This document shows, piece by piece, positions 1,909 to 62,456 of a stretch of 64,000 nt of DNA. The position numbers and the translations under genes are program-made. The notes beneath the pieces are model-generated. The model worked only from the letters and a program-made list of their open reading frames with translations, was not told the origin of the DNA and searched no databases. Position 1 is the first letter of the stretch, and every line of letters begins with the position of its first letter. This stretch comes from Mycoemilia scoparia (taxonomy: Eukaryota > Kickxellomycota > Kickxellomycetes > Kickxellales > Kickxellaceae): assembly GCA_027575805.1 (NCBI GenBank), contig JANBPU010000028.1:1-64000 (forward strand), read 5' to 3'.

Positions 1909-2017
1909 ATATGGGTGGTTATTTTTGAAGTCGGCCGACCATTTGGCTGTGATTGCTGCCCCTATAATCGTTGGTCAACAAAGGGAGATGGTGCCTTTCA
2001 AAAACCGTGATCCATAT
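1909..2017 (+). mobile_element. Family A MITE-like element, copy A1
   Basis: It starts ATATGGGTGGTTATTTTTGAAG, and ends with CTTTCAAAAACCGTGATCCATAT, which is its approximate inverse complement. The centre carries the family core CCATTTGGCTGTGATTG followed by CCCCTATAATC. The GGGTGA part of the left end has decayed. Confidence 0.65.
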
Positions 2018-2092
2018 GAGAGAAATCAATCACTATGACTTTCTTTATTAGAAACGATGATGGTACATACACACACACACACTTCTATCCAG

Positions 2093-2166
2093 ATGGTTAG
2101 GCATTTTATTACTTCTAGGGAGGCAGCTTCTATGCCACATAGTACACACACTTTTATGTCTAAAAT
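2093..2166 (+). repeat. Family C dispersed repeat, copy C1
   Basis: The core GCATTTTATTACTTCTAGGG, then AGGCAGCT..TATGCCACATA and a CACACTTTTATGTCTA end, matches copies at 4661-4737 (inverted) and 38149-38228. It is the most diverged of the three copies. Confidence 0.55.
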
Positions 2167-2423
2167 CTAAACCAATCATAAAATACCCATAGTACTAATG
2201 TTTGTGCTATACCATTAGCATCTTCTAATGAACTCAAGTTTCTGGGTGATCCTAGTTGCAATACACTCTCATTTCCGATTTTGTCAAGACATATACATAT
2301 ACACAGCATCATCCAGGTCTCAAGAGCGCTTTTTAAAGAGTAAGCTCAAAAGCAAAAGCAGTAGCATCATTATTGTTATTTTTATAATACCATCAGTAAT
2401 AGATCAGTACATCGGAGACAACG

Positions 2424-4095
2424 ATGCTGGGGATTAAACAAACTAAAGAATTGATTGCGGGAGTTCTGAGAAGCCAGATTACCCATCGTTGCTATTCTAT
2501 CGAAACGGGAAAATCATTATCTTCAACACCATCTTCTTTATATTCAGGAGCTGCTGTGGTATTTGACATTGATGGTGTTTTAATAAGAGTAAGTTGGGGG
2601 TCTTTATATTAAACTAATTTGAAGCCCACAGGTAAATACGTAATAATAATAATAAAAACAAAAATAATCTAAACGCCAAATTCCATATTGTGGCATATGA
2701 TTTAGGGTAAAAATGCGATTCCGCAAGCAGTCAAAGCACTACGTATCTTGGATGGCGAAAACAAGTTAAACAAAAAGATACCCTTTGTGACATTGACTAA
2801 TGGTGGTGGTGTCACTGAAGCAGAGAAAGCAGCTGCGGTTAGCAAGATTATTGATTATCCGGTAAATATATCCAGCAAGCCTAATTTATTTACTACTAGC
2901 ATTATGTAATCATTAGTAAATGTCCAAATAAAATTCTTTTGTTTTAACACTGACAAAAATATATATCCATGTATGTGTAGATCAAGCCAGAGCAAGTTAT
3001 TCTGTCACATACTCCGATGAAAGCGCTGGTTCCCAAATATAAGGACAAGCTAGTATTGATAGCTGGAGGCAAACACCGAAACTGCATGCGAATTGCCAAG
3101 GCTTATGGATTTAATAAAGTTTGTTTGCCCAATGATGTATTTAATTGGAATAATTCAGTGTGGCCTTATAAGGACGGGCTTGACAAGGACGATCTTCCTG
3201 TCGACCCGAACGATGGCTCTATGTCTGATTTTAATAAAGAAAAGATCCACGCTGTCATGGTATTCCACGATCCACGGGATTGTAAGTATAGTAATATTAG
3301 TTTAAATTCAAAATAGGTTTGTGTAATTGTAATAATGCTAACCGAGAAAAGCTTTTGTAAATTGTTTCTAGATGGTAGAGATCTTCAAATTATCTATGAT
3401 GTTCTTAAATCCAAGGACGGTGTCATTGGTAATGGATACGAAAATTCCGGAAAACAGAGTGTGCCGCTATATTTTTCCAACTCTGATCTTGTGAGTATCC
3501 ATTTCCTCCAAACCAATAATTGTATTTATCAAAAAGAAAGTTAATCTAACCAATGTTTGGGGGCGTTGTGGTATTTATTATAGATTTGGAGTACAGACTT
3601 TGTATCACCAAGATTTGGTCAGGGAGCATTCCGTGCATGCTTAGAAACCCTTTGGGATGTAAGGATATCAAGGCACTAAACACACACACACATATATATA
3701 TATATTCTACTGATCATTCTAGAAAGCATTTTAACATGATGATCGCTAATACACACTGGCTACAATAGAAAACTAACGGCGATGGAGGAAATAAGCTAGA
3801 AAGGATATTATATGGAAAACCATTCAAAGTTCAGTATGAATACACCGAAAATTGCATCAACTCGATATTTAATGACAATGGGAATGGTCGCAATGTCTAT
3901 GCAATCGGCGATAACCCACTTTCTGACATCGATGGTGCCCACAACTATGGATGGAAGAGTGTTCTCGTTAGAACTGGTGTTTACAGCGATCAAACTAAAC
4001 ACAAGTATCTTAATTCCAATCCGACAGCCATTGTTGATGATGTTGAACAGGCTGTTCAATGGATCGTTGATCAAGAGGTATCTCGCGTAGATTAA
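2424..4095 (+). CDS. CECR5/HDHD5-like HAD-superfamily hydrolase, paralogue 1
   Basis: Six exons are inferred: 2424-2588, 2706-2861, 2981-3281, 3372-3490, 3584-3658 and 3769-4095. All junctions are GT-AG and in phase, giving about 380 residues. Class IIA HAD motifs are present: motif I FDIDGVLI with Asp48/Asp50, motif II in LTNGGGV, a cap region after HTPMKALVP, and motif IV GDNPLSDIDGAHNYGW. The fold matches the CECR5/HDHD5 family (yeast YKR070W), whose substrate is poorly defined and which is often mitochondrial. The N-terminus is rich in Arg, Ser and Thr and could be a weak presequence. The gene is paralogous to 22822-24895 and shares five intron positions with it; it lacks one intron the other copy has. 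The spacers on both sides are repeat-rich. The family call is firm, the substrate unknown. Confidence 0.88.
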
Positions 4096-4150
4096 ATTGG
4101 ATTTTGTTTAATTTAAAGATCTGAAGATTTGTGTCTGTGTGTACATGGGA

Positions 4151-4292
4151 AGATTTGACTAGTGATCGAGTCTATGATAGTATACAGAAATGAGCCCTCG
4201 GATTTTAGCTCAATCATCGGCTGTTTTATATGCAACTCCCGAGGATCCGTCATTTTTACCTAAAGCCCTGTGAACTTTGACCACATACACGT
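4151..4292 (+). repeat. Family D dispersed repeat, copy D2
   Basis: This is the second copy of the repeat seen at 545-676, lying just 3' of HAD gene 1. It begins GATTTGACTAGTG and contains GCAACTCCCGAGGATCCGTC, then a TTTTTACCTAAAGCCC block and TTTGACCACATAC. An internal inverted pair (GAGCCCTCGGAT and AACTCCCGAGGATC) supports a foldback structure. Confidence 0.5.
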
Positions 4293-4530
4293 TTAGATAG
4301 CGGATACAGCCTGAAGATTTTGCTAGACTTAAAAGATTTTATTTAATAGATAGATATAGATATAGAAATATTGGACTTGTTCTATTTTCGCCTTAGGTCC
4401 ATCTTATTATTTGCAAAAATAAGAATGAAGCCGATTAATAACAGGGTTTTTTAGAACACATCTTTATTTTTAGGCTTGCAACTGATTGTTGTGTGGGGGT
4501 TATTTGCGCACCAAATCCTTGATCATATAA

Positions 4531-4650
4531 CAGTGTCTCCTATACAAGGATACTAGGATGCACCCTCGTATACCATCCAATCATCGCTGAAACTATAGCT
4601 AAAACATGTGAGTTATGGGCTGGCTTGTAAACAATGTGTGAGGGTATCTG
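4531..4650 (-). mobile_element. Family B MITE-like element, copy B1
   Basis: It reads GTGTCTCCTATACAAGGATA at the left and carries the core CCAATCATCGCTGA..CT..TAGCTAAAACATGTG, then GGGCTGGCTTG. This matches the reverse complement of 25648-25784 over most of its length. It has no ORF. The ends are only approximate. Confidence 0.55.
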
Positions 4651-4660
4651 TCTGTTTCCT

Positions 4661-4737
4661 CCTTTGGTAAACACAAATTTTAGTGTATGTGGTATACAGC
4701 TACGTCCTTAAGAGTAATAAAATGCTTAATCATCAGG
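4661..4737 (-). repeat. Family C dispersed repeat, copy C2
   Basis: The reverse complement reads TGATGATTAAGCATTTTATT, then ACTC..AGGACGTAGCTGTAT, ACCACATACACTAAAATTTG and TGTTTACCAAA. It is nearly collinear with the copy at 38149-38228. Confidence 0.65.
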
Positions 4738-4771
4738 TATCTGTCTGCTTCCTTTTTGTGGAGAACTTGCC

Positions 4772-4860
4772 ATTTGGGTAATAATTATTGAAAGGTGAAT
4801 GATTATACGGGCAATCGCAGCCAAATGAGTGACTAGCCCTTCATAAATAATCGCCCATAC
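4772..4860 (-). mobile_element. Family A MITE-like element, copy A2
   Basis: The left end is ATTTGGGTAATAATTATTGA followed by AAGGTGAATG. The right end is CCCTTCATAAATAATCGCCC followed by ATAC. The core is inverted relative to copy A1 (GATTATACGGGCAATCGCAG, then CCAAATGAGTG). At about 89 bp it is a short member of the family. Confidence 0.7.
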
Positions 4861-5182
4861 ATCAAGATTAAAATAAATTTAAAAGGGGAGAATAGAACAC
4901 AATAGAAGCAGCACGGCTGAAAATTAATCCAGATACTGGCAAGGGTTTAGGGATGATTTATAGTCAATCACCACAATAGTGCCACGTCTTCCCATAACCA
5001 TTGGTTGGTGCTTATCTGTTTACTTGATTAGGATAGGGGCAATGTTGTCCATTATTAGAAGCTTTCATCATCAAAGTCTGGTCTACCTTTTTAGTTTTCC
5101 AACCAACAACTATATCCTCCCTTAAATTGTACTATTTCTCTGACAACCTGTTTGACTATTGAGTCTTTTATTTTAGTAAAGG

Positions 5183-7941
5183 ATGTCTTCTTCTAATGTT
5201 GAACCCAAAGAAGAGCGCGAGCTTCTTCCCACCACTGTTGTGCCTCGTCACTATGATCTGTCCCTAACCCCTGACTTGGTTAAGCATACTTACCACGGCC
5301 ATGTCTCAATAGAGTAAGTGTGCATTACTGTCTGAAAGTTGCAGATATATAAGTGCTTTGAGCTTTGTGCCTAACAATCACCATGCCATGTGCTTCTTAA
5401 CTCCATAGTCTCGATGTGACTGAATCAACATCACAAATCATTCTTCATGCTACGTACCTGGAGATCGAAAAGGCCACATTTAGCTCCGACTCCCTAGACG
5501 GCGCTCTCCCAGCAACAAAGTTCGATTTCAACAAGGAGAATGAGACTTTGACACTCGGCTTTGACCAAGAAATCAAGGCTGGAACAAAGGGCAAATTGTC
5601 TCTTTCCTTTACAGGTATCTTGAACAACGAAATGGCTGGATTCTACCGCTCCTCCTACAAGGATGCTGAAGGAAACACAAAGTATCTTGGCACTACCCAG
5701 TTCGAACCAACCAGTGCTCGCAGAGCCTTCCCATGCTTTGACGAACCCAAGCTCAAGGCAACATTCGGTGTCACCCTTGTTGTCCCAGAAAATCTAACTG
5801 CCCTGTCTAACATGGATGAAAAGGAAACTACAAAGGAAGAGAACGGACTCAAGCGTGTGGTCTTCAACGATACTCCTCTGATGTCAACTTACCTTTTGGC
5901 ATTCGTTGTCGGTGAATTCGAATACGTCGAGGCCTTCACTTCTGGAGAGTTTAACGAGAAGCCGATTAGATGCCGTGTATACACTCTTCCTGGCGAAAAG
6001 GAAAAGGGTACATTTGCTCTCGATGTAGCTACTAAAGCGCTTGAATTCTTTGCTGACAAGTTCGGAATTGCTTATCCTCTACCAAAGCTTGATCAAATCG
6101 CCATTCCTGATTTCGAAGCTGGTGCTATGGAGAACTGGGGTCTGGTTACTTATAGAACTGTTGCTCTTCTTATTAACCCCAAGGAGTCCCGTATCAAGTC
6201 GAGACAGCGGGTCGCTTATGTTGTGTGCCACGAATTGGCCCACCAGTGGTTTGGAAATCTAGTTACTATGGAATGGTGGAGTGAATTGTGGCTCAACGAA
6301 GGCTTTGCTACTTGGGTTGGTACCTTGGCTGTCGACTACATTTATCCTGAATGGAACTCTTGGACTACCTTCATTGTCGATGACTTTGATAGAGCTCTCC
6401 AGTTGGACTCCAAGCGTTCTTCCCATCCTATTCAGGTTCCTGTCCCTCGCTCATCACAGATCACTCAGATTTTTGATGCCATCTCATATTCTAAGGGTGC
6501 TAGCACCATTCGCATGCTTAGCTCATTCATTGGCCTAGACACTTTCCTCAAGGGTATTCGCCAGTATCTGAAGAAGCACAAGTATAATAACGCTTCCACT
6601 GATGATCTCTGGTCTGCTCTTAGCGATGCTTCTGGTCAGGATGTTAGCAAGTTCATGAACTTGTGGACTAAGCAGGTCGGCTATCCTGTTTTGACTGTTA
6701 CTGAGGAAGAGAATGACACCATCCGAATCAGACAGAACCGTTTTATCTCCTCTGGCGATGTTAATGAAGAAGAGGACAAGAACTTGTGGTGGGTTCCTCT
6801 TAACATTCTTACATCCGCAGACGATGCCAGTCAAAGCTCTTCTGCTGTTACAACTGTCCTTACCCAAAGAGAAACTACTATATCTCTTCCACCCGGCACT
6901 CTCAAAAATGGTTGGTACAAACTCAACAGGGGCACTGTTGGCATCTTCCGTGTCAAATATCCCGAAGAAACTATCAAGAGACTTGCAGGCGTTATTGAAT
7001 CAGGAACCTTGTCGACTCCTGATCGCATTGGAATTATTTCTGATCTTGGTGCTCTTGCAATCAGCGGTATGAGTAAAACTTCTAATATGCTTACCTTATT
7101 CAAGTCCAGTGTCAACGAGGAAGATGACGATGTCTGGGAAGCTATGCACGGTAACCTCTTCCTTCTTAGCATTGCTTGGTTAGATCAATCTGAAGATATT
7201 CGTGAAAAACTCAAGACATTCAGACGCAACTTGTTTAGCCCACTTGCCAAGAAGCTTGGTTTTGTAGTCAAGAGGGGCGAAGATAATATGGTTACAAGAC
7301 TCCGTGCTCGCGCTTTGACATCCGCTGGTAATGCTGGTGATACTGAAGTTATTGCCAAGGCTCAGGAATGGCTCAATGCCATCGCAGCTGATCCAAATAC
7401 ATCTGCTGTGCCTGCTGATCTTATTGAAACCATGTTTGTCGTTGCTGTTGGTCAGGGCGGTAAAGAGGAATATGAAGCTGCTAAACAATACTACCTTGAT
7501 GAAAGCAATCCAATTGACCAGAGACTTGTTGCTCTCCAGGCTATCGGTTCAACCAATATCCCTGAACTTATGGACGATGCTCTTGAATTTGCCTTGTCTG
7601 ACAAGGTGCGTGGCCAGGATGTTCATACTTGCCTGCTAAGACTTTCGCTTACACCAGTTGGACGTGAAAAGGTCTGGCAATGGTACAAAGCCAATTATGA
7701 GCAGTTTGTCAAGCGTTATGGCGATTCTATGAGCTATTTGGGTATCCTTGTCCGTTTGGCTGCTTCTCGCTTCTCATCAGAAGAAAAGGCAAGAGAGGTT
7801 GAGGAATTCTTTGTTGGTAAGGATGTTAGTCGATTTGATAGAGCTCTCAGTCAGTGCTTGGAATCTATTCGTACAAGTGCTGGATGGGTTAGTCGTGATG
7901 CTCAAGATGTTAAGGAGTGGCTTGATGTCAATGTTCAATAG
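5183..7941 (+). CDS. M1-family zinc aminopeptidase (puromycin-sensitive type)
   Basis: Two exons, 5183-5313 and 5409-7941 (intron donor GTAAGT, acceptor CATAG), join in phase to give 887 residues, the usual length for cytosolic M1 aminopeptidases such as yeast Aap1 and Ape2. The exopeptidase motif GAMEN is at residues 282-286. The zinc site HELAHQWFG starts at His318, with ligands His318, His322 and Glu341 (in LNEGFATW) and catalytic Glu319. The C-terminal half is the ERAP1-like helical domain. There is no signal peptide or anchor, so a cytosolic enzyme trimming N-terminal residues from peptides is expected. Codons look strongly biased (AAG, GCT, GGT, CTT), which suggests high expression. AATAAA at 8003-8008 is a candidate poly(A) signal. 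The gene is tail-to-tail with the TRAPPC8 gene, with about 108 bp between stops. Confidence 0.95.
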
Positions 7942-8049
7942 TGCCAGTTTCAGTAATTTTTATTTTGTTTTATTTTTTTCAGTCATTTCATATTCTTCTC
8001 AAAATAAATTACTAGTTTAATTTTGAAACAAGTTATAATGTTGAAGCTG

Positions 8050-12645: not shown

Positions 12646-13496
12646 TGAAAAATGCTGGCAGGCTCTAATATTGGAATGCAGGTAAATATATATAAAGTGA
12701 AATGTAAAGAATGTAATAGAGAGGCCTCAAGTGATAGTGTTTTCTTTTGAATAATGTAACTTTGCTATGCTACACATTAGTCAGGCTGCCAAGGCGTGAT
12801 CTAATAATCATTTATATTTTGGGATTTATGTGTTGTTTATCAATCACTCATATGGGCGATTGTTTTTGAAGGGTGACCATTTTCTAATAAGCTGTGATTA
12901 CGACTATAATCTTTGGCCACCAAAAGATACCCTTCAAAAACCATGATACATATGGCCGAAGTCATAGTAAAAAGGCAACAGAATAGTATCCTCAAACAGG
13001 ATTATCTTTTTTGCTATTGGATCCATTGAGACAGCTCTTTAAAGAAAACGGTTATACTATGCTAATTAACACACATACACACACTGAATGAGCTCCTGGC
13101 ATATATAAGTTGATGCTGTATGCTAACTTTAACACTACTATATATGATCAATAGGTAGCATTGATTGTATGCGATGCATCCTATTTATAATAGTACCAAG
13201 CGATCATCTTTTCAGATTGGTAGATAATTATTTTACTCTTCGAATAAACGTTCCATAGCTTGCCTCTTTAGAAAGGTCATTCTCTGATGCCTTCGCCTTA
13301 CCGATTAGGCACAACATGTTAAAACAAAGCTCATACAAATCATCATTATTACATCAATAAGTGTGTATTGTTATGAATGCAAATAGAAAACAAATGTGCA
13401 AATCTATGAATGCGTACTTATGAACAGGTAGGTTGGTCTATACTTATATATATACTTAATAACAACAGCGCAATAGGCTGACCCTATTTTTACTCT
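12646..13496. other. Intergenic region between TRAPPC8 and transporter genes
   Basis: This 850-bp spacer lies upstream of TRAPPC8 and downstream of the MFS gene, both on the minus strand. It holds one family A element (about 12850-12954) and short AC-rich and TA-rich runs near 13070 and 13447. No ORF or RNA gene was recognised. Confidence 0.6.
12850..12954 (+). mobile_element. Family A MITE-like element, copy A3
   Basis: The left end TATGGGCGATTGTTTTTGAA followed by GGGTGACC pairs with the right end ACCCTTCAAAAACCATGATA followed by CATATG. The core GCTGTGATTACGACTATAAT followed by CTTTGGCCACC is a diverged form of the family core. Confidence 0.7.
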
Positions 13497-16747: not shown

Positions 16748-19167
16748 CTACTTGCATGGAGCAATACTTTTGGCAGATTTCGATAGCTCGCACAAGATAG
16801 AGTAAAAAGCCCAATCCATGTGCTTGTAGTTGCATTCTTCTATATCAGAACCCCGCCATTCTTCCATAAACCCGTCCCAGTCATTGTGCAACAGATGCGT
16901 GTAGGCTTTGAAAAATTCACTTCGGTAACCAAAAGCCACGCTCGATAGGATCCTGGCACAATTTATATGGGTTTCTATCGGATCTTCAACAACAAATGGT
17001 GGCTGGAGGTGTTGGTTGGCTAGGGCTTCACCATGTATGGGGTTAAAAATGCTGCTATTAAACATCGCGGTGGTGTGTTCACGGGATGCGCTGGTGGTGC
17101 CTAGCCTCACGGATATGACATCTTTGAAAGGCTTGTACGTGGTGCTGTAATGGTAGAAAAAGTCTATCAAGAGTTCCCGGACACCCATTTTGCAAGGCGA
17201 GGCCCAGCCGTTGTTCTTACTATCGCCATTGCCTGTTGAGTTTATCTGGCTGGTTTTCTTGACACTGCAGTGTTTGGATTTGCCCGCATGGGCTGTTGAT
17301 GCTTGTGGTTTAGCGGGATAATACATGTACACCTCGCTTTCATCAATTATTCTAGACTGAAGCTCTCTCCCGCAATTCAGACAGACTCTTAACGTTGATG
17401 ACGCCTTTTCATCTTTCAATGGTTCTCTCTCATCCTTGTCTGCGGACTTTGATGGTGGACGTTTATTACCATTTCCGCCAGGCTTTTTTAGACAGCAAAT
17501 TTGTTGGATGGGTGGAACAACACCCAGCTCTATAAGCCTTGCCAATGCCATCATTGTCAAGGCAAAAGTATTAAGTAGCGCGGATGAGGCGTCAGCAAGG
17601 TTTCTCCTTTTTTGCCATTTCTTTAGAATTATCAGGAATGGTTTAACCCGGTCATCAATAACAACATAATTTGAAATCAGTCGAGTTTTGTGAACACCAA
17701 GAACGGAGTTAAGGCAAATATCGCCACTAATTTGACTAGATTATTCAAGACTATATGTGTCAGTATAGTAAAGGTAGACCAGGCACGTATGTGATTTTAA
17801 AACATCCCATATATATATCATATAGATTATGATGTGTGACTTACTGTGCTTTATGTTCAAATTTAAGAACTGGTATACGAGCGCTGGTTATTGGCAATAA
17901 TTTGGAGAATTTCTCTAATAACAACAATAGTAATAAACAATTTTAGTGGGATTAAAAAACCACTTGTTATTATAAAATACTTCCTCATAATAATAGCAGT
18001 GAATTTAATTTTTTTGATATACTAACCTTTTTTAAGTTTAGTTTTTAGTTGGCCGACAAAATTATTTAGAGGAAATTTCTTTACGCGGCTATACTTTGGT
18101 TGTATTAGTAAACTAATGTCAACGTCGCTATACTTGGTGGCTAGCCCAGTGGCAACAGATCTATGGGGTGTTTTTTTGTATTTAAGCATGGTGTTAGTAT
18201 CTTTTCTTCTAATAACTACTGCTAGTGGTAAAGTAACCCAAATTGATTTTAAAATTTTCTTTTTCAACTTACCCAAATGCTTGCCCAGAAACACGGAAAT
18301 TTGGTTTACCAATTTTTTTGGCAACGTTTGTTATTACTTTTAGTATATTTTTAGATTTTTTGTCTAAGTCACTCGAGTCAATCTATAACACATAACCAGA
18401 GCGAAGAGTGTTTTTGATCAATCTCTGTTTGACTGTTTCGATTTAAATACACCATTATAATTAATTTAGCATACCTGAGATTCTTTGTCAATTTGTTGTT
18501 GGATATAATCAATATCAAAAGTCTTTTTATGATGCTTTTTATAATTGTTAATATCCTCTGTTGTTGTTGTTGCTGTTGCTGCTGTTGTTTGTGGTGAGTA
18601 TAAAAATGGCAGGATTCCATCTTTAAGCTTATTGAGATCAAATTCATTATTGGTATAACTGATAAGAAATCGATCCTTGCTTCGGTGTTTCTTGAGATTT
18701 TTGGGTGTTTTGGGTTTACCGTTGCATGATCCTTCACAATCAGCCTTGTTTGATATTATCTGATGGTCCTGCTCATATTTGATATTAAACCACGGACGAA
18801 ATATAGGCAATTTAATCCAATCCTTTACCGACAGCGTGGCTCCATTTAATAAATTCTGCTTATATTTGATAGGAATTGTTGTATTTGGGACTTCATCAAG
18901 AATCGTGTCGATATTATGCCACTCTGTATTTTGGAATTTTTGTGGCTGTAAAGATATCGCCGTCCCTTCTTTTCCTCCTTTTTTTATTATTATTTTTGGA
19001 GTCGGCGTTGAACTCTTTTGCTTTATAACATCAATTATACTAGATATGATTGTAGAATTTTCAAAGAATGCGTTATTTATATATTTCGAATTCTCTAAAA
19101 GCCCTTTATAAGATAAAAATCGGGACCGATGAACCTTTCGAATGGGTAACATTGAGTGCAACAACAA
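16748..19167 (-). CDS. Cid1-family noncanonical poly(A)/poly(U) polymerase
   Basis: Five exons are inferred: 19167-18475, 18382-18273, 18160-18027, 17914-17845 and 17735-16748. They join in phase to about 664 residues. The nucleotidyltransferase motif FGSVATGLATKYSDVDISL is rebuilt only by splicing: Phe-Gly comes from exon 2, and the rest from exon 3, with intron branch site TACTAAC. Catalytic Asp are D280 and D282. The third acidic residue is D341 in SGDICLNSVLG. Next come the central-domain block DDRVKPFLIILKKWQKRRN and, near the C-terminus, the PAP-associated block (MGVRELLIDFFYHY, FVVEDPIETHINCARI). The enzyme would add nucleotides to RNA 3' ends; A or U preference is not clear. The exon 1 N-terminus (Arg/Lys/Ser-rich) could target mitochondria. 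One alternative start is the second Met, five codons on. The exon 5 acceptor has a rival 9 bp downstream that is also in frame. Confidence 0.85.
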
Positions 19168-25399: not shown

Positions 25400-25530
25400 A
25401 TATGGGTGATAATTTTTAAAGGGTGTGGTGTGACTTTTGGTGGTAGCCAGCGATTATAGGGATAGTCCTAGCCAAATGAGCGATCACCATTTGTTAGCAA
25501 ATAGCCACCTTTCAAAACAACTACTCATAT
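25400..25530 (-). mobile_element. Family A MITE-like element, copy A4a
   Basis: The left end ATATGGGTGATAATTTTTAA followed by AGGGTG pairs with a right end CCTTTCAAAACAACTACTCA followed by TAT. The core is inverted (CGATTATAGGGATAGTCCTA, then GCCAAATGAGCG). At about 131 bp it is longer than most copies. Its right end merges with the left end of copy A4b. Confidence 0.65.
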
Positions 25531-25619
25531 GAGTAGTTATTTTTGAAGGGCTATAGAGTCGCTCATTTGGCTGGGATTTCCCCTATAAATATTCACCCTT
25601 CAAAAATTATGATCCATAT
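25526..25619 (+). mobile_element. Family A MITE-like element, copy A4b
   Basis: It runs from CATATGAGTAGTTATTTTTG through GCTCATTTGGCTGGGATTTC and CCCTATAAAT to ACCCTTCAAAAATTATGATC followed by CATAT. It is in the opposite orientation to A4a and shares the CATATG junction with it, so the two form one inverted composite of about 220 bp. Confidence 0.7.
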
Positions 25620-25647
25620 CTAGATTAAAAATCGCAAGGCGATAAAT

Positions 25648-35849: not shown

Positions 35850-36929
35850 GTTTTTTCCATCCACTTGTTCACAACGATAAAAGAGTTCCAACAACAACTC
35901 CCATTTGTAATTGTTACGGACCGCACAGCAAACTATCATCACACTTTATGCCACAACATACCCACAAGCACGCAAACCCACATATACACACAAATACCCA
36001 TATTAACAGATAATATTAGCAGTACTACTTGCTTGAGACACATTCGTATTACTATTACTACCAATTGTTAGTATTTTTATATTATTACCCATTACCATTA
36101 TCACTATTACTATCATTATTATCTATCTAATTTTTTTTCTGTAATTTATAAAAAAATTCACATCTTTATCAAATCTATATAACACGTAACTAAGTGAAAT
36201 ATTATTAAACAGTCTTTTTATTCAGACAGTAAAGATATATTTTTGTAAATTTTTATGTATTTTGGTTACTTTATATATGCGTGTACTTTATTAGGTAGAG
36301 AAAATTAACGAAAAAGGTGAGACAGAAATAGTAGTCACAAAAAAGACTTTGGGTAGGCACTGCTAAACTATAAACTTAAAAGCCATAGAGAGCATCAAAA
36401 ACCTCTTTATAATGTATTGCTAGATTATAACCCAATCTTAACTTTCTTTCTCTTTATGGAATATTAGCACTTAATACTATATTCCTCATATGGGTAATAA
36501 TTTTTGAAGGGTAATGATTATAGGCGTAATAACAGCCAAATGGATGTCCCAGTTTTACTAGTAAACACTCGCCCTTCAAAAATAATCTTCCATGTCATTA
36601 AGATTTGTATTGAATAAATTAATAAATATATATTCAAGAAGAAACTGAATAAGCTTGACAAGGAGAGAGTGGTTCAAGGTAAATGAGAATGTATAATGTT
36701 TTATGTCTTCAAACACTTTTAACTATAACTTTATTTGAATAAATAAAGATATGGTTTTAAAAAGGTAAAAAGGATAAAAGGTTCTTCTCAAAAAAAATAA
36801 TGAAGATGTTAAAAAGATAGAAAAAAAAGGAATCCTAATTCTTGATTCTGTTTGATTCAGTGTCATCTTGGACTATTCTCAATGGGCCATGTTGGCTATG
36901 GCTTTTACTTTTTTTAAAAGGAGACTCTG
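35850..36929. other. Intergenic region downstream of ATG4
   Basis: About 1.1 kb between the ATG4 stop and the 3' end of the orphan minus-strand gene. It is AT-rich, with (ATT)-like runs near 36050-36125 and a family A element (36487-36594). No gene was recognised. Confidence 0.6.
36487..36594 (-). mobile_element. Family A MITE-like element, copy A5
   Basis: The left end CATATGGGTAATAATTTTTG followed by AAGGGTAATG pairs with the right end CGCCCTTCAAAAATAATCTT followed by CCATG. The core is inverted (GATTATAGGCGTAATAACAG, then CCAAATGGATG) and followed by TTTTACTAGTAAA. Confidence 0.75.
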
Positions 36930-37517
36930 CTACCTGTCTTTAAGCTCCTTTGTCTCTTCATATTTGGACAACTCCAATTTGAACCACTCGTAATTCTCTA
37001 TACAGGAATAACAGAAGCAGAACTTATCCCAATCTTCGGAAGTTGGCTTAGGAGGCACTGTAACATTATGATCAGTGCCTATCACCTGAGTCTTTTCAGA
37101 AGTTTCTGCCTCATCTTCAATTGATTCATCGGAAGCAGCTATCTCTTTTTGCCTTTTGACCTTCAAACTATAATAAAACCCTATAGCTCGAGCAATGCAA
37201 GTACAAACTACTCTATTGCTGCTGACTTTTCTTTTTCCAAGATATTCAAGCATATGGCGAATGGAGTCATCAATACTCTTTTCAGAGTAATCAAAAAGTT
37301 CCCAAAATCCATCAATAGACAGTTCATAAGCATAATACATGGCACTAAGCATGATTAGGTTCTTTTCATTAATGTCTGCATTCTGGTAGCGTTCTGAAAT
37401 TCTGGTGATGCCAGTTGAGAAAAGCTTAAAAGTAAGCTTCTCAAGTTCTTTCTCGCCTTGGGCGTTAGGGTTGGGGTGAGAGTAACTATCCATGAAGTAG
37501 TAAGCGAGTGTGAACAA
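36930..37517 (-). CDS. Orphan hypothetical protein, 195 residues
   Basis: A single-exon ORF with an intact stop. Translation may start at the first Met (37517) or at MDSYSHPNP eight codons on. The composition is that of a real soluble protein: a helical N-terminal half (EKELEKLTFKLFSTGI, then NLIMLSAMYYAYELSIDGFW), an acidic central linker, and a C-terminal WDKFCFCYSCIENYEWF block with clustered aromatic and Cys residues. No family is recognised. It is bracketed by family A elements, A5 about 335 bp past its 3' end and A6 about 125 bp upstream. No introns were needed, but an upstream exon cannot be ruled out. Confidence 0.55.
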   Translation of the reverse strand: MFTLAYYFMDSYSHPNPNAQGEKELEKLTFKLFSTGITRISERYQNADINEKNLIMLSAMYYAYELSIDGFWELFDYSEKSIDDSIRHMLEYLGKRKVSSNRVVCTCIARAIGFYYSLKVKRQKEIAASDESIEDEAETSEKTQVIGTDHNVTVPPKPTSEDWDKFCFCYSCIENYEWFKLELSKYEETKELKDR

Positions 37518-37642
37518 GATGAATGCAGGCAGGTAGAAAGGGATAAAAAGAAGATAAAGTAACTTTCAAGTATGAGGGTATGGAAATGTGCGATATTTAT
37601 ACATTTTCAGAATAGCATTTAGAGACACAGGTGAGAGAACTC

Positions 37643-37764
37643 TACATGGACAATAGTCTTTGAAGGGTGAATTTTGGTGAACAATGATTATAAGGGCAAT
37701 CACAGCCAAATGAATGTCCAGTTTTACTAGTAAACTTTCACCCATCAAAAATAATCGCCCATAT
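37643..37764 (-). mobile_element. Family A MITE-like element, copy A6
   Basis: The left end ACATGGACAATAGTCTTTGA followed by AGGGTGAA pairs with the right end TTTCACCCATCAAAAATAAT followed by CGCCCATAT. The core is inverted (GATTATAAGGGCAATCACAG, then CCAAATGAATG), followed by TTTTACTAGTAAA. It sits in the likely promoter of the orphan gene. Confidence 0.75.
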
Positions 37765-37980: not shown

Positions 37981-38094
37981 TAGGAGATAATTTTTGAAGG
38001 GTGAATGTTTACTAATAAAACCAAAAAGCCATTTGACTGTGATTGCCCCTATAATCATTCACCCTTCAAAAATTATTACTCCCACTTTCAATTT
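37981..38094 (+). mobile_element. Family A MITE-like element, copy A7
   Basis: It runs from GAGATAATTTTTGAAGGGTG followed by AATGTTTAC, through the core GCCATTTGACTGTGATTGCC followed by CCTATAATC, to ATTCACCCTTCAAAAATTAT followed by TACTCC. The inverted ends match over about 28 bp, so this is among the best-preserved copies. Confidence 0.8.
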
Positions 38095-40293: not shown

Positions 40294-40325
<32 letters not shown>

Positions 40326-43945: not shown

Positions 43946-44068
43946 TATTGATGATGATGATAGAGATATATGTGGTGTGTGTTGGAGGGAGAATTATATA
44001 GGAATTTAAGGTTTATTTTTGAAAATGTTTAATCTTTTGTTATTTTGTTTTAATATATATATATATAT

Positions 44069-44208
44069 ATATGGGTAGTTATTTTTGAAGGGCTAAATGC
44101 AGATGGTGCATGATGATGCATTGGTCAATGATAATATAAGCTAGCCAGCATGCAAGCTGAAACTGGCCTACTAGTAAAACTTATTCCTTCAAAAATAATC
44201 ACTCATAT
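44069..44208 (+). mobile_element. Family A-related element, copy A8 (diverged centre)
   Basis: The ends are clear family A ends: ATATGGGTAGTTATTTTTGA followed by AGGGC at the left, TTCCTTCAAAAATAATCACT followed by CATAT at the right. The centre is different from other copies (TGATGATGCATTGGTCAATG and neighbours) except for CTACTAGTAAAAC. It may be a variant subfamily or an element with an internal replacement. Confidence 0.6.
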
Positions 44209-44305
44209 GGGTAGCTATTTATGAAGTGTGAATTTTTACTAGTAAAATTGAACATTCATTTGGTTGGGATTACCATCCTTCATAATTTATCGCCCTCCAA
44301 AATGT
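44204..44305 (+). mobile_element. Family A MITE-like element, copy A9
   Basis: It starts CATATGGGTAGCTATTTATG followed by AAGTGTGAA, has TTTTACTAGTAAAATTG, TTCATTTGGTTGGGATTACC, and ends CCTTCATAATTTATCGCCC. Its left end overlaps the right end of A8, so the two are joined through one shared terminus. Confidence 0.65.
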
Positions 44306-46730
44306 ATGGCTGTTCATTAGCCAAATTTGTTGAAGGCATTATATTAGAGATAAAGAATTTAGTATACTTTGTGTATGTGTGAGTACATGTCCATTCTGTT
44401 GGCTAGATGACAGAGAAAACAGATCACCAAGTTAAATAGACAAATACAAATACAAATCAAATTAAACTAAAATAAACCAAAATGAAAGTTACTGTAAGAG
44501 TTGTTAGTAGTAGTAGTAGTGTTACAAGGGAGAAAGAAACAAAGAAAGAAAGTAATGCGGAAACCATTTGTAGTTTATGCAAAACTAGTTATGAGTCAGT
44601 AGTTAGGAGGATCTCATACCTCCTTTTTATGCATGCACATACATACCTGAATGAATGAATGAATCAAAGGATGATGTTGATGTTGATGTTGCTGTGGGTC
44701 TGGTTTGGTTTGGTTTGGGGGGAGAGATGATATGAAAAATAGGATGACAAAATTGTGCATTTAAATACAACTTTTTTGTGTTCCCTTTGTTTGGGATATT
44801 GTTATAGAAAGAGTGGGTGGAGGGGAAGGGCAGGAAAAAGAATAGGAAAAAAAGTTACGGAAAATGGATTTTGAGTTTTTATTTAGAAAATTAGCGATAG
44901 GTTTATTTTTTTTGGTGTCAGAGACAAGTATGGCTTTTGCATTATCATCATCATCATCATCAACAATAACAACAACAGAATATAGCGGTGTGGCTGAATT
45001 GGGTTGGGTTGGGTTGACCAGATGTTATACTAATCCGTATATCATTATAACAAAGTTAAAAGAATGAAGCGACATAAATTGCCATTAATACATACATTAA
45101 AGACTACCACCAATGTGTAATGTTTCGGTCACTTATTTTATTGGGCAATAAAGATCGACAACCACACACAAACAGCTGTAGATGTTGTTTTTGGCAGTGA
45201 TGCAGAAACTACTAGGAGCGTCACACGCCCACATATATATTTGAGCGATTGCTTAAAATTGCCTTTGCTTTTGTAGTAAGTTGCTGTGGTGAGCAAAGAA
45301 AGAGAGAAGGCGTGCGTATGTATGTGTGTGTGTGTGTTGAAAGAAATTCCCGATCTGAAAGAAGCCTTACATCACTACTACTCTCTTTGACCTTAGGAAA
45401 GAGAGGAGAGATGGGGGGTTTTCATGAATTTTTCTAAACATAGAAAAAATGCCATCCATTAAATCCAAGACAAGGAGAGTAATGGCTGTGTGTGTGTGTG
45501 TGTTTGCATGAAAAAAAGATTTTTGCAGTATACTTAATGAAATAATACTATAGTAGCAGTGCTAATGTGTTAACAGCTTTGGTCATAATTGCAGTAATAA
45601 TGATTGGAGAAAAGCTTTGTATGTAGGTGCTGATATGGACACCCAAGCTAGCGATACTAAAGAGACAGCCTACGGGTGTCTGTGTGTGTATGTGTGCTTG
45701 TTTGAAAAACCCAACACTGATAAATAGGAACGATTGAGTCCTGCTGCTGTTTTTCTTCACATCTCCTTGATAAAGCAAAGCAAAGCAAAGTAAAGATAGA
45801 TATAGGAAGAGATGTAAAAATGCAAGAATAGATGTAGCTGCATAAATTAAAAATATCAGAGAGCACTGATAGATATGGTCGTCGTATATGGTGGGTGGCA
45901 GCCTCAGAAGTAATAATAAAAGACCGAAAGATAAAAGACACCAAATTGTGATTCTTCAAGACAAAAGCCACATTCCGAATGGCAATGATAAAGACTATGA
46001 TGGCGATACTGGTAGTCCAAGTCGTGTGAGTGCGAAGGAATTAATGAGACAATGAGTTTTGGTTTTCAAATATCCGTGTGGGCGTAGTTCACATGACAAG
46101 CTTATTTGCTTGCTTTCGGCATTAAATCCGAATAGCAACACATTGTATTTTTGTTTTTATAGGAGAGAAAGAGTAAGGGTGAGAAGGGAGGAGACTCCGG
46201 GGGTATGTGCCGGTTTGTCATATGAGCAGCAGCACCAGCAGTGGAATGTAAGGATGTATATGCAAGAGCGTTGTTGTTGTTGCTGCTGCTGCTGCTGATA
46301 TTATATTGGAATTGAAAGCGTCATGATTGTTGCTTGCTGGTTAATAATGATTTAATATGTGGGTTAGGCGGAGATTATTTGTAAAAGAGGAAAGGAATTT
46401 AAGGGGGCAGGAAATACTTGGAGGGGTAAAAAGGGCATTCTAATTCATAAATCTTTGATGATGGCCGTGTGGGGTTTGTGTGGCCTCGGCTTTAAAAGTA
46501 ATGCTTTTTTAAGACTAATCTCTAATGTGTGATCCTGCTACTACTACTGCTGCTGCTGCTGACGATGATAACAACAGCAGCAGCAGGACTACAAATATAG
46601 ACCTGATTAATATTATAATTTATATTATAAATTAGTTTGTTGATTATGACATTAGGAAATCGTTTATCCATATTTCAAAAAACACTGCGCTTAAAATACT
46701 ATTTAATTAAAGAGAGGAATGGAATGAGAA

Positions 46731-49205: not shown

Positions 49206-49376
49206 TTTGCAAATAATGGAGAGAATAGTAGTAGTCAATCGACGGTATATACTAGTAGTAGCAGTATAGATGTAACAATAAAGTTTATTGAAGATAATCT
49301 TTAATCTTTATAACACAGTATGTATAGACAGAGAGATCGAGATGAAGAATCAAGAGTCTCTAATAGAGTGAAGAGC

Positions 49377-49378
<2 letters not shown>

Positions 49379-49424
<46 letters not shown>
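49379..49424. repeat. (GA) microsatellite, 23 units
   Basis: An uninterrupted GA run about 175 bp upstream of the HMG start. Long GA/CT runs are common in fungal promoters and 5' leaders and can exclude nucleosomes. On the HMG gene's own strand it reads as CT. Confidence 0.85.
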
Positions 49425-49428
<4 letters not shown>

Positions 49429-49903
49429 GATGGTAGTGAGAGATAAGAGATAGATAAGATGAAACGCGATAGGAGTTTGGAGTTATCAACAGGAAGCACA
49501 GAATTGTAGCTGCGAGTTAATTGATGAATGAATGGATAAGAGATAACAGAAATATGGCTGTATAAATAAATGATGGCGTGTTTAAATGGCTGAAATGTTT
49601 AGGCCTGAAGACACTTTGGAGTTAATGTTAATTAGGAGTTTATTTGCCAATATATTGGGCTGTTCCTACTGTTGATGTGGGATGGTTGTGGTGGTTGTGA
49701 TGATAAAGCGTCAACAGAAAACAGATGAGTAAATTAAAAAAAGAGAAATTTGTGGGGGTGGAAGAGGATGGGTATTTATAGAAAAAGGTCATACGCACAC
49801 ACTTTCTCTCAAAAGAGAAGGGTGGGTGAAGCAGAAGGTCTAAGAATCGGACAGGCATAGAATATGGCCAACAGGAAATTGGATGAATAACTGGGTTAGT
49901 GGA

Positions 49904-49906
<3 letters not shown>

Positions 49907-49936
<30 letters not shown>
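49907..49936. repeat. (CAG) microsatellite, 10 units
   Basis: A pure CAG run followed by CAACAACAG. On the minus strand it reads as CTG/TTG. No ORF of convincing length surrounds it, so it does not look like a polyglutamine exon. Confidence 0.8.
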
Positions 49937-49945
<9 letters not shown>

Positions 49946-50184
49946 ATACAGTAGCAGTATTATGAAAAAAGAAGACTGATTGAGTCAGTGGGGTTGTCAA
50001 AAAGGGGGGGGGTGCAAAACAATAGGTTGGCAATAATAATGATGATTATGATGGATGGACAAAGTAAGCGTACGAGCAAAAGCGTGCGTGTGTGCAAGAG
50101 GGTAAAAAAGGTGGATAAAATGAAGGGGGTGGTGCGTTGTTTGTGTGTACAGGTCGGCCTAAAACCACCGAGCGAGAGTTGTAC

Positions 50185-50214
50185 ACATACATACATACAT
50201 ACATACATACATAC
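50185..50214. repeat. (CATA) tetranucleotide tract
   Basis: About seven CATA units followed by CGCACATATG steps. It lies in the desert, about 1 kb upstream of the HMG start. Confidence 0.8.
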
Positions 50215-52805: not shown

Positions 52806-52902
52806 ATATGAGGGTAGTAGTTATTTTCAAAGGGCCAGTCACCCATCTGGCTGCGATTGTCCCTATAATAATCATCCACCCTTCAAAAATCATTACCCAC
52901 AC
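52806..52902 (+). mobile_element. Family A MITE-like element, copy A10
   Basis: The left end ATATGAGGGTAGTAGTTATT followed by TTCAAAGGGCC pairs with the right end CACCCTTCAAAAATCATTAC followed by CCACAC. The core CATCTGGCTGCGATTGTCCC followed by TATAATAATC matches other copies. It is one of two family A copies in the desert. Confidence 0.7.
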
Positions 52903-55900: not shown

Positions 55901-57123
55901 CCGTTTTGAACAATGCTTGCTGCCTTCTAGCACTAATACCACTACCATTCCTACAAACGCAATTAGATGTCTTTGGCAGTTGATTGTGTGGTGCCAGTAG
56001 TCAGTACAACATATATTAAATAACGGGTTATTCTTTTTTCTTGTCCATTGAGCAATAGCAACCCGTGTTTTTATGCATAGGCATTTGTTTAACGCAAGCA
56101 ATTCCTCCCCTCCTATGTGTCTGTGTTTGTCTGTAAGAAAATTTAGGCCGAAAAAACCCACCACACAAAGAAATTATGACGTAGAGCGCTGGTTGTAGTT
56201 TAATTATTTGCACTCGGTCCTTTAGCCAATAATGTCATTATCCATTGTTGCATTGTATTGTATGTTGTGACTTTTGTTTGTGATCCTGATAACATTCTTA
56301 CTATCATAATAATCAGCATATTGGCCCTTATCCACCACACACCGACAAGGATATGAATAAAGATTATAGTTTGACCGAAAAGCAATAGTATTAGTATTAG
56401 TAGTATCATCAGCAGTGGTAGAGTGATATTGTTAGCAAGAGCTTGTTGTATATGATATTGAACATGACCACCAATAGCAAAGCTTGACCGTGGGAATTTA
56501 ATCCCATTGGTAATGCCGGCCTTTCAGAGCTTACAAAAACAAGTATATACACATCCTAGTTGCAACCATATGCACTTAGTATAACGATAGAGCAAGTAAC
56601 AGCCAGCAACCCTTTCGCCTTATTTGGTTAGAATTGATATTTTCCCTTTGTTGAATGCTGCTGCATCTCTAAGCAAACATCAATAGCAAAACCAGCAAAA
56701 AGAGAGTGTCCGTAGATAATAACTTTTGCTAGCCAGTGACTGGTCATCATCGTAGGTATTTGCATAGCTGCACTCGTGTATACAGTCATCCAGACACTGA
56801 GTCATCCAGTTGATCAGACCACAGTGGTTACAAAGCCGCCTTAATAGTTTAGAAAATGAAAAAGCTTCGATTAGAATCATCTAATAAGCTCGCTCACTCA
56901 CTTACTCACTCACATCGTATTGTGCTTACAAATCCGAATACACTGGTACTGAGTATTATAAGTTAATGTTGTTGTAAAAGCAATTATAGTTACGATAATA
57001 GGGCTGAGTATATGAATACCAAAAAGATGTGCAGTTGGTATTGGTCAATGGTCTGGAGACATCACCACAAACAATACCACCACAAATAACAACGGCAGTG
57101 AAAGCACTAGTTGCAGATGTGCC

Positions 57124-57271
57124 AAGTTCTTCGCCAAAAGGGACCAGGCAGATTACCCCCATACATTCCCTGCAAATCAGCCCGTAGCCCAGACATTTTA
57201 GCTGGAGTATCGGTGATGATTGGCTAGCATCCAAGGGAATATCTTAGTACTGCCCTTTTAGAGAAGTCTGG
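57124..57271 (+). mobile_element. Family B MITE-like element, copy B3
   Basis: The left part AAGTTCTTCGCCAAAAGGGA, then CATTCCCTGCAAATCAGCCC, matches copy B2. The core ACATTTTAGCTGGAGTATCG is followed by GTGATGATTGGCTAGCATCC. The right end AAGGGAATATCTTAGTACTG followed by CCCTTTTAGAGAAGTCTGG is the inverse of the left. It is the only family B copy in the desert. Confidence 0.65.
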
Positions 57272-58159
57272 CATACACATCGTAGACTTCTTTAGGTTCA
57301 AAGCATATCCACACACACACTCTGCTGTATATTCGGAGAAAGCCTTTGTACATGAATGCGCAAATCCATCCTTTGTGGGCATCAATGCCAGCAAATACTT
57401 ATGTGGTTGCATGTTTTGGTAAGCGCAATGGTCGCAGACAGTGCCGAGATTATATCCATCATCAGTGTTGGTACTATTGAAGGGCAGCGAACACATGTGC
57501 TCGCATATTTCATGATTTACACTATACGGCATTGCCCTCAAGTTTTGGACATGAATATGTGTTTTTCCAATACTTTTGATTCTTGGAATAGATAGTTTGA
57601 TATCCATGGGTATTGTTGTGTTAGATGTGTCCTTTCTCTCTCTCGCACCCCCATTTTTTGGACCACAGACAGACAGACAGACAGACAGAGAGAGATATAT
57701 ATATATATTATTGTAGTCAATACCAAAAAAGGTTAACAGTCAGATTCTTTTCCATATTGGATTTTTTTGCATAAAATATCAAGCAACAATGAAATAATAT
57801 CAGAACCTCACTACTCTTTTACCATAGCTAGCTGCCATCTCAGTGAGAAAATAAGTGTTTGTTCATTGATAATAAAAGGGTTCTTTTCTTTTGATTGTGC
57901 AGGAAAAAGAAAGACTTGGTGATGATCAAATTGTGTACATATCTCAATGACAAAGACAAAAACGCATACCCACATACACAAGCGACGTACAACAAGTTTA
58001 AAGTAATTGTTGCTTATGTCGCTGTGACCAAGTTTCACCGTCTATTTACCCATATTTGGGCACTTTGTTTCCAGAATAAGCCAACTCCTGACTAAAAAGG
58101 AGTTGGTTAAAAAGTCCCACTGTTTTTACCACGACTGTGGATATGACAATGCTTTGCAT

Positions 58160-58180
58160 AGCTAAGCTAAGCTAAGCTAA
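58160..58180. repeat. Short tandem GCTAA pentamer array
   Basis: Four units of AGCTA/GCTAA. The inverse motif AGCTT/GCTTA occurs four times at about 19179-19198. It is too short and too rare to be telomeric. Confidence 0.5.
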
Positions 58181-58944
58181 TAGACTAATGCCCAGTAACT
58201 GGAGCCTCTTTTTGAAATAGTAGTAGTAGTAATAGCAATAATGATAACAGAGTCAGCCATATGTGCAAAAGTATTCAAGCCTATTCCGATACCACCATTT
58301 GCTATTGCTGTTTTTGACATTAAAAGCATTTTATGTGGTCGTAAAAATTAGTTTCAAACTTGATTGTTAGCGAGTTCCCACGAGGTCATATACCATGCCA
58401 AGATATCGCACAAAAACCAGCCAAAACTAGTTGAGCTGTTAAAAGTGCCAAATATTCCCACTTTTATCTTACACAATAGATATACTATATCTATATTTAT
58501 ATACAAAGCCGTGAGATCCTTGGAATGTTTGTTGCCTAATTTATGTGCTTGGATGTAAAAGGCGCATGGCTTTAGCAGCACAGCTCCACCTGGTTGATTA
58601 TGCTATCTCGGGATGAAGATAATACCGAATTTGTTTCTCCAAATAGAAATATACTAGTAATTATTAATGGTAGTAGTAGTAGTAGTATTAGTATTAGTAG
58701 TATTAGTAGTCAGTAGCATGTATTAACCACACATCCCAACAATGTAGATTCGATAATCCACTACTACTTTTACTATTATTCAGTATTGTCACAATCCCTA
58801 ATTGCGAGATATATGTAAATCCACTATTGAAGGCTAATGCCACACTCTCCTCTTTCCCCTTCTCCTTAAACAACGATCCCACTGTTAAATACTCCAGATT
58901 GCGTATATTTTTAACCCCAGTACTACAGCGTAAAATACTTACCC

Positions 58945-58984
<40 letters not shown>

Positions 58985-60820
58985 AGCATTGGTGCTTTTA
59001 ATGGATTCTGGAAGTACCTATTATATGGAACTATTGTGTACATGACTATTACTCTTTCTCAACGGGAAAAGAAATTACCAAATGGAGTTCTTTTTGATTG
59101 TTTACTAACCTGACATTAATGTGGTTGTTAACTATTTGCTCTTTACAATCAAAGACTTACAATAATAATAATAACAACAACAACAACAACAACAGCAGCA
59201 GCATCAGCAGCAATGGGCACACAAACACATGTATCTGCATTACTCTCTCTTACTAGGATTCCCTGGATATGTAGTAGACTTTATATATTAGGAACCCACT
59301 TGCTGCCTATATATAATGGCTCTTTATTAATAAACAACAAGATTAGATGGTTGCTGTAGTCGATAATGTGTCCCCAGTACTGATAATACTAATAATATGC
59401 CTGATAAGCACACATATAATCAGTGTAGGTAAAGGTATGTAGGTAAATCTTGGTGGATGCATGATTGAATAAAATAAACAATTTGCAAATGCAAGGCAGG
59501 TTGAGGTATGGATATGTGTCTAGAGAAAGGAGTACCACAGACATTAATATTGTTTTTTTATATGATCTTTTCTATGCGTCTGTTGTCAACTTTTCCGCAT
59601 ATCTGTGGATATGCGTATATGTATTGATATGGTATGTTGTAGATCTTTTACAATAGATTTATTCTATAAGTATATATTGTTGTTTTGGTACAATTACTTC
59701 GATCTAAAAAATGAAACTAATGCCCCTCCCCTAATATGAATTTTGAATCCATCAGCACATCCACCAGAAGGACCAATAAATATTGATGATAAAAGTGGTG
59801 GTGGTAGTTAGTAGTGGTGACTGCTAACATCCGACCACACTATTCATAATTTGATAATCACGATCTTTTGTTTTTGATTGTCTGCTGAATGAGTCAGCTG
59901 ACACATACACGCACATGCCTAAACTTAGACCAAGTCAGCAGGGCTTGTGAGCTTATTTCCAAATTTTGAACATCGCATGATAGTAAAAAGCTCGGCTTAA
60001 GATTTGAACATGGACGAATAAGGGAATTGGATGTCGTCATTACCTGAGCCTATTATTTTTATCTTAATCAATCTGTCTCATCATCATCATCATCATTAGG
60101 ACGACATTTTCCTATGTTTGAAAATGATTATCACGCACCCACGTTTTCTTGATGAATTAAAGTTAGAAGCAACACTAGTGATGGTCATTGTTGTGGATTA
60201 ATGAGATTTTTCTTTCAATGATAAAGCAAAAAATGGAATTAACACACACACACACACACACAAATATATGTTCTTTATCAAAATAATCAATAGCCAATTC
60301 TGTTTCGGTATTCCAGCCTGGTTTGTTGTTATGACAAGCATTTCCAACCTTTGGCCTTGCTGAATAAATATGTATATTAAATAGGCGTATAGCGGGTATT
60401 ATTCCTGAGACATTTGCATATTAGGGAATAGAATAAAAGGTAGGGGGTACACTACAAACAATAGTGTATGTGTGTGCTATGTAACATGAAAAAATGCACC
60501 TTGATTCAGTCGGACAGAGGAACTGCATAGCTTGTTGTTTCAAACATGCCCATCCATTTTCTCTAGTCAATTACAATGCCACCATTGCTATGTGTGCTTT
60601 CTATAGATAGTATATCAGGAAAATCTACCAGTATACTATATAAATGCAGTTCGGTAAATCGACTGCTGTTTCAATTGTTTAATTCTTCACAATACATGTA
60701 TGTGATTCTAACCTTACATAAAGGAGCTGTTAGTCCACAATAGTATCTGTTTTTTCTCTGTACACTGGTGCCGAGTATATATAGAAGGTGGTCGGATGTT
60801 ATGGTGAGTCTCACCAACTA

Positions 60821-60857
<37 letters not shown>
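60821..60857. repeat. (CTA) microsatellite, 12 units
   Basis: An uninterrupted ACT/CTA run, the longest trinucleotide tract in the desert. It sits inside a plus-strand ORF (60788-60991) that it largely creates. Confidence 0.8.
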
Positions 60858-62362
60858 TTTCGCTATATTATTTTCTTGGGCTCTCAAAAGCCCCATTGTT
60901 AATTCTTTCTTTTTGCTTTGTCATTGTCGTTGTCAAGCCTGGTGAAACACTGTCGATAGTCGTCACTGCCGCTGTCATTATAATTAATTAACTATGGTTT
61001 CTTTTCTAACATGTAGTCGGGTGAGTAATCCGAACTCATTTCTAAGTGAACCAAAGCTGGCTAATAATGGTAGATCAGAAGCAGTATAAAAATATACATC
61101 GAGTAAGCAGAATACGCCTGGTAATACTGACCGGATATTATCCAAACATGCATGTGTATTGTAACTAAATGGCAACCCTTTCTAAATTTTCTTCTAACAT
61201 AGATGCTCCTACTGTTATCTGCTATGCAGAGAACGGATAATACCGGGTGATGAGATCTCCTCTCGTCCTGCAATTACCCCCCAATGTATTGCATTGGCTT
61301 GGCACCACCACATGTTGTGTGTTGTGCTAAAAGTAGTTATAGTTGTATTAACAGCAGGATTCAAGGAATTGACAAAAACAGCCAATAGAAAAATTTAGAA
61401 TGTATTTATTCTATTGGTTAGATCGGACTTTAAGAACTAACCAACTGCTGGCAAATACGGAGACAGAAAGGCAGAGGATAGGAAAGACCGAAATACAGGC
61501 AGTCTGCAAAGAGGGATCGTTGGTGGTTATGTATCGTTAGTGTTGTGGTAAAGTCTTTTATTCTTTCATCAGTGCAAAAGATAAGGTATATGCATATGTC
61601 CCCTTTCTGTACGTACTGTGCTCATATGCCAACCAATTGATGAATGGATGTATCCCTTTTATTCCTTAGTTTGGATATTGGCAAGGGTAAGGATTTAAAT
61701 GTGTGGTTGTGCGTGGGACTGATTGGATTCTTAGCACAACTGGGCTGCTACTGACATTAGATCCAAAGAAATGTATGTCATGGCTGAGGATACGCCATCT
61801 AATTTCTCGGCCTAATAAATACCACAATCTAATTATAATCGAAAAAATGACTGCTTTTTATTTTATCCACTTCAGATTGTACTGCTAACATCGAAGAGGT
61901 ATTTCAACAATGGTCACATGAAGCTTGGAACAGACTTACATGGCAAAGCGTTTGTAAATGGCCATCTGTGGTCAGAAGATAAGATTATTGTTATTATTAT
62001 TATTACTACTACTACTATCATCATCGCTTTTTAAATTCGGTCTTTATAAAGATCGAGAAAGAGGGGGCCATCAAAACCCCTTAAAAGTATGCTTTATCAC
62101 TCGTGATCTCATCGCCATATTTATTTGGTTGCGATTACAATGTCATTTATACTGACACACGTGTCATGAATACGTACATAAATTTACACCTCAAATGTTT
62201 ATATTTTTGCGTCCCTCTCTATCACAAGACCCTTTTGTGGTTGTGGTAGTCACATAAAGCCATTGTGTTAATAGGATGAATCTTGTCGGGGTCTCCAACA
62301 ACAAGGACTAGACATACATGGGATGTTATTAGAGTCGAAACCCTGCCAATTAAATTAATTTA

Positions 62363-62456
62363 ACGGGAAATTGTTTTTGAAGGGTTAGTCACTCACTTGG
62401 CTGATATTGCCCCTATAATCATTGGCCACCAAACTTACCCTTCATAAATTATCACA
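62363..62456 (+). mobile_element. Family A MITE-like element, copy A11
   Basis: It runs from ACGGGAAATTGTTTTTGAAG followed by GGTTAGTC, through CACTTGGCTGATATTGCCCC followed by TATAATCATTGG, to CTTACCCTTCATAAATTATC followed by AC. It lies about 155 bp past the stop codon of the ATPase-like gene. Confidence 0.7.

Follow-up and report, generated by a model that had tools for sequence, protein, structure and literature searches.

Positions 1 to 64,000 of contig JANBPU010000028.1 from the fungus Mycoemilia scoparia (hereafter the window) contain 12 copies of one short inverted-repeat element, each 83-134 bp long. We conclude, with a probability of about 0.88, that these stretches are miniature inverted-repeat transposable elements (MITEs), non-autonomous cut-and-paste elements mobilized in trans by the transposase that long elements in the same genome, with the same ends, encode. 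The elements are short and non-coding, have inverted ends and a target duplication, are dispersed at high copy number, and have a coding relative with the same ends, which are the properties of the MITE class. An initial annotation of the window had proposed a MITE moved by a transposase encoded elsewhere in the genome; the dispersal of the copies, their 2-bp duplications and the existence of a long element with the same termini support that proposal. Over 337 amino acids (aa), the product of a UROD gene in the window shows 100% identity to a protein of Mycoemilia scoparia (Kickxellales).

The element is dispersed throughout the genome

We searched the M. scoparia genome (21.16 Mb, 466 contigs) with two patterns taken from the element, allowing up to 2 mismatches in each. 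The 16-base core gave 1512 matches (741 + 771) compared to 3 + 1 for a reversed-pattern control, and the 25-base end gave 523 matches compared to 0, so the family extends far beyond this locus. As the core is detectable within 2 mismatches in 5 of the 12 window copies, the 1512 matches scale to ~3,600 copies genome-wide; extrapolation from the density in the window gives ~3,970, for an overall range of roughly 3,600-4,000. At ~100 bp each, the MITEs make up roughly 2% of the genome. Of 100 core places listed genome-wide, 30 were taken as loci, 61 more were covered in 60 stretches, and 9 were left out. Two further genome scans scored 7,997 candidates each, and the counts derived from them are lower bounds.

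Insertions duplicate a tolerant 2-bp target

The inverted ends of the MITEs are ~24 bp long, with a consensus like TGGG..ATTATTTTTGAAGGGTGA, and the ends of the MITEs and the long elements read TGGG..GAAGGGTGA in short form. Ends were placed with a matrix beginning at the T of TGGG, and placement was hence blind to the flanks. Across 152 two-ended copies, a shift of 2 was the only one at which left and right flanks clearly agreed (130 versus 116 expected, z = 6.2; 125 versus 102 expected, z = 7.9), while every other single cell of this test had a z of 2.5 at most. The target-site duplication sought for these copies is thus 2 bp in length. TA stood on both sides of 97 of the 152 copies, and matched dinucleotides other than TA flanked a further 17 (permutation mean 1.7, maximum 9 in 20,000 permutations). 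Since two copies that are 100% identical (L087 and L124) have duplications of TA and AA, the AA duplication is not a product of decay. The base before the duplication was A in 143/152 copies and the base after it was T in 140/152, indicating a preferred target of A|NN|T in which NN is mostly TA, with AA, TT, TC, AC and others tolerated. Identical MITE copies also occur at unrelated flanks.

Long elements with the same ends encode a candidate transposase

A full-length transposon with the same termini is complete on contig C351 (locus L149, minus strand). This element is 2,191 bp long, has TA on both sides, and matches at 24 positions when its first 26 bp are compared with its inverted last 26 bp. 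It holds one long open reading frame (ORF) of 529 aa with an ATG start, which we refer to as P0121. Each of its two flanks, of 77 and 115 bp, shares 97.4% identity with L081, a mariner copy in which a single base separates the two; L081 provides a paralogous empty site of the C351 element, one substitution off in the duplicated dinucleotide. Such a site was found for the long C351 element alone and not for a MITE. The mariner element at L081 (about 1310-2635) has termini of its own and an open frame of 402 aa, and a MITE copy lies on either side of it, the two being under 2 kb apart.

Relatives of the C351 element are present on several contigs. The left end is retained on C117, with 92% identity over the first 308 bp. 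More distant relatives are found on C456 (44-45%, with stops in one of two pieces) and on C226 (39-45%, open as far as the contig end), and further fragments of long-element relatives lie on C4 and C75. The L150 locus (C456:23200-25900) has two transposase remnants side by side, one 72% like that of C226 and the other 44% like that of C351, with a MITE nearby.

A second, younger long family begins on C226. Its 77-bp terminus was found at 29 or more places with 97-100% identity, a lower bound given that 40 of 357 candidates were scored. Of 18 loci that were fetched, 17 stop 69-74 bp inside the element at a contig end, and the remaining one (C226) continues into an ORF. This pattern fits an assembler collapsing recent copies, and we infer that the younger family was recently active. 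An older copy of this family (L157, C159:23650-24164; 94% over 229 bp) is truncated by sequence that looks, by eye, like the end of L071, a Tc1/mariner locus. At L156 (C411:1-300), the first 77 bp of the contig are identical to interior sequence of the younger long element, but a MITE core and right arm take the place of its usual outer end; this is either recombinant or a join made in assembly.

To relate the MITEs to these long elements, we used a set of 139 oriented copies, left after 13 pairs whose core matched poorly were removed from the 152 two-ended pairs. In the C351 element, bases 25-48 lie beyond the inverted repeat; they matched at 20 or more of 24 positions in 56/139 MITE copies and at 22 or more in 39/139, compared to 16 at most for a shuffled query. 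The last 28 bp of the C351 element gave at least 25 matches in 27/139 copies. The C226 left arm fits the MITEs less well (20 or more of 24 positions in 7/139). From the subterminal match in 56/139 copies, many MITEs look like deletion-type derivatives of the C351 lineage.

The transposase and its possible affiliations

P0121 had no match to any Pfam family, including THAP, YqaJ and Myb/SANT, and its six relatives matched no DDE family in Pfam. P0121 and its few relatives have invariant D-D-D motifs in common, and the predicted catalytic domain of one relative has an integrase/Mos1 fold. P0121 is predicted to be a DDD/E enzyme with an RNase H-like core, for which D267-D349-D390 is the candidate catalytic triad. 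We could not assign this transposase, as its lineage is without match in the family libraries searched; the kind of element it would move, a MITE, is ordinary, and the architecture of the system is that of standard cut-and-paste DDE elements.

One alternative is that the elements are MITEs of the PHIS type (ISL2EU/PHISTA-like); the 2-bp duplications of this known group lie inside A..T. ISL2EU elements produce AT duplications at the target A|AT|T (PMC4482050) and PHISTA elements of rust fungi produce TA duplications (PMC12730594); both resemble A|NN|T, and the A before and T after the duplication are as in ISL2EU. However, the Mycoemilia dinucleotide is tolerant and TA-rich rather than AT, DDE_Tnp_4 (PF13359) had no match in the genome or in P0121 and its relatives, and the long element has a single long ORF in which none of the accessory domains named above was matched. 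We regard membership in the PHIS group (Harbinger/ISL2EU/PHISTA) as unlikely.

Still less probable, and very unlikely, is that the MITEs belong to Tc1/mariner (Stowaway-like) and depend on one of the ordinary mariner transposases of this genome. TA is the commonest duplicated dinucleotide (97/152), the genome contains 13 DDE_3 places above cut-off, and the predicted RNase H-like fold, close to Mos1, and candidate D-D-D triad are like those of the Tc1/mariner (ITm) group. However, Tc1/mariner insertion occurs strictly at TA (PMC5481204), whereas 17/152 MITEs have matched non-TA duplications and identical copies carry TA and AA. MITE ends were found near 5 of 15 DDE_3 places (within 2.0-3.5 kb around each), as opposite-facing pairs ~90-140 bp apart, and are thus MITEs rather than mariner ends. 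In addition, the mariner L081 has different termini of its own, and the long-element ORF has neither a Tc1/mariner Pfam match nor profile similarity to the Tc1/mariner copies of the genome (hhalign probability 0.1-0.2% for the P0121 lineage).

Two further cut-and-paste groups were compared by motif. The CMCT group (EnSpm, Plavaka, ESTA) is characterized by C(2)C and H(3-4)H motifs, which follow the second D and precede the last catalytic residue, and by CA..TG ends in most members (PMC12730594), whereas P0121 has, by eye, no CxxC between D349 and D390 and the element ends are TG..CA. In the hAT/MuDR/P/Kolobok/Dada group, C/DxxH lies between the second D and the last catalytic residue (PMC10045372). 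P0121 and P0125 contain C350-G-P-H353, with A, S or G at the first position in P0122, P0123, P0124, P0126 and P0127; the duplications of 5-8 bp (hAT) and 4-10 bp (MuDR) do not fit the 2 bp of Mycoemilia.

MITE copies in the window

The inverted-repeat family in the window is real and far beyond chance, although its size is 12 copies and not the "at least 13" of the initial annotation, which itself gave 12 coordinates. BLAST of the noted stretches against the window returned 10 clusters that correspond to 12 copies, as two clusters are abutting pairs, along with a single stray 19-bp match at 18095 (E = 0.005). A profile hidden Markov model (HMM) built from copies outside the window recovered the same 12, none with an E-value above 6.4e-6, and gave no further copy in the window (next new place E = 1; best E in a reversed-window control = 1.7). 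The copies occur in both orientations, as had been described. The ends had been called near-identical and the core common to all; we find that the ends are only alike, with a decayed or poorly matching end in 3/12 copies (44208, 52814, 62364), and that the core is present in 11 of 12.

Five of the 12 copies have TA on both sides, and four form two abutting pairs with one TA common to each pair. Copies 1 (1912-2014, plus strand) and 3 (12853-12950, plus) are flanked by TA on both sides, as are copies 4 (25403-25527, minus) and 5 (25530-25616, plus), which abut and have in common the TA to the right of copy 4. The second pair comprises copy 9 (44072-44205, minus; E = 6.4e-6), with TA on both sides, and copy 10 (44208-44306, plus), which takes up the right TA of copy 9 and has a decayed right end. 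Copy 9 is the one that lacks the core, and by eye it belongs to a second MITE subfamily that shares these ends; other coreless copies grouped with it by eye lie at L060, L010, L120 and L004. Flanks are unmatched for copies 2 (4775-4857, minus; TT/TA), 6 (36491-36592, minus; TA/TG), 7 (37647-37761, minus; CA/TA), 8 (37981-38082, plus; AT/CA) and 12 (62364-62458, plus; AA/TA). Copy 7 has a left arm of the C351 type (by eye) and lies ~80 bp upstream of a minus-strand ORF (36930-37565), copy 8 contains an exact core, and copy 11 (52814-52899, plus) has a decayed left end.

As stated previously for coding exons, no copy overlapped a coding interval (0/12; chance for 12 random placements 0.0007-0.001). 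The coding set used here comprises 17 intervals chosen from 24 ORFs, two gene boundaries being set by eye, and covers 44% of the window; it is not a gene annotation, so copies may still fall in introns or untranslated regions. That all 12 copies lie outside these intervals and have a conserved core could reflect non-mobile structural or regulatory elements kept for function (recombination sites, RNA genes, units like short interspersed nuclear elements), but this explanation is highly improbable given the 2-bp duplications that agree within each copy's flanks, the identical copies at unrelated flanks, the long coding element that shares the ends of the MITEs and has an empty site, and an Rfam search of the window that gave no match at gathering thresholds. 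A functional role could add to the mobility of these elements but would not replace it.

Discussion

Our data lead us to propose that a transposase of the C351 lineage, and of the younger family represented by C226 and many contig ends, would bind the inverted ends of a MITE, excise it, and join it to a target with a 2-bp stagger, so that insertion at A|NN|T, with NN mostly TA, would duplicate the NN dinucleotide. We infer that a P0121-type enzyme moves the MITEs, and transposition probably continues today.

Several observations weigh against this interpretation. No transposition was observed, and by eye the C351 element lacks the common MITE core. A single long copy was found complete, stops interrupt its close relatives on C415 (82-89%) and C117 (83-93%), and in the younger family the contig end on C226 truncates the transposase gene. 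The structure model of P0121 itself is poor (predicted local distance difference test score, 55), and Foldseek gave no matches at E <= 0.001, with RNase H1 and endonuclease V among its best rows beside Mos1. Flanking dinucleotides are unmatched in 38/152 copies, which we attribute to decay or recombination, and the analyzed copies were picked by a conserved core or end, making the sample non-random and biased to conserved copies.

Stowaway- and Tourist-like elements are MITEs of cut-and-paste DNA transposons. The Mycoemilia elements are like known MITEs in being short and non-coding, with inverted ends, target duplications, thousands of copies and a long element that shares their termini; they differ in that their partner transposase falls outside all families in the libraries searched. 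The M1/M2 palindromic repeats of pithoviruses are also very dense and short (one is ~140 bp), and abutting copies have a dinucleotide in common; they are viral, the authors report no clear autonomous partner (PMC10664404), and we claim no relation. A literature search limited to titles and the starts of abstracts, with subscription papers not covered, returned no description of this element or of Mycoemilia transposons. We tentatively suggest, at somewhat less than even odds, that the 529-aa transposase founds an undescribed superfamily of eukaryotic cut-and-paste transposons. Its marks would be DD40D, a single long ORF, TGGG ends and a relaxed 2-bp duplication at A|NN|T; it would occur in Kickxellomycotina and, as a distant form, in an oxymonad protist, and its MITE burst, ~2% of this genome, would probably be ongoing.

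Together, these analyses describe a whole MITE system in an early-diverging fungal lineage for which our literature searches listed no account of transposons. It comprises short copies in the thousands, one long copy whose ORF is intact, and a younger, near-identical family. The system also accounts for many of the breaks in the M. scoparia assembly. A transposase that prefers TA yet uses AA, TT, TC and AC would make the choice of dinucleotide in 2-bp-stagger integration testable.
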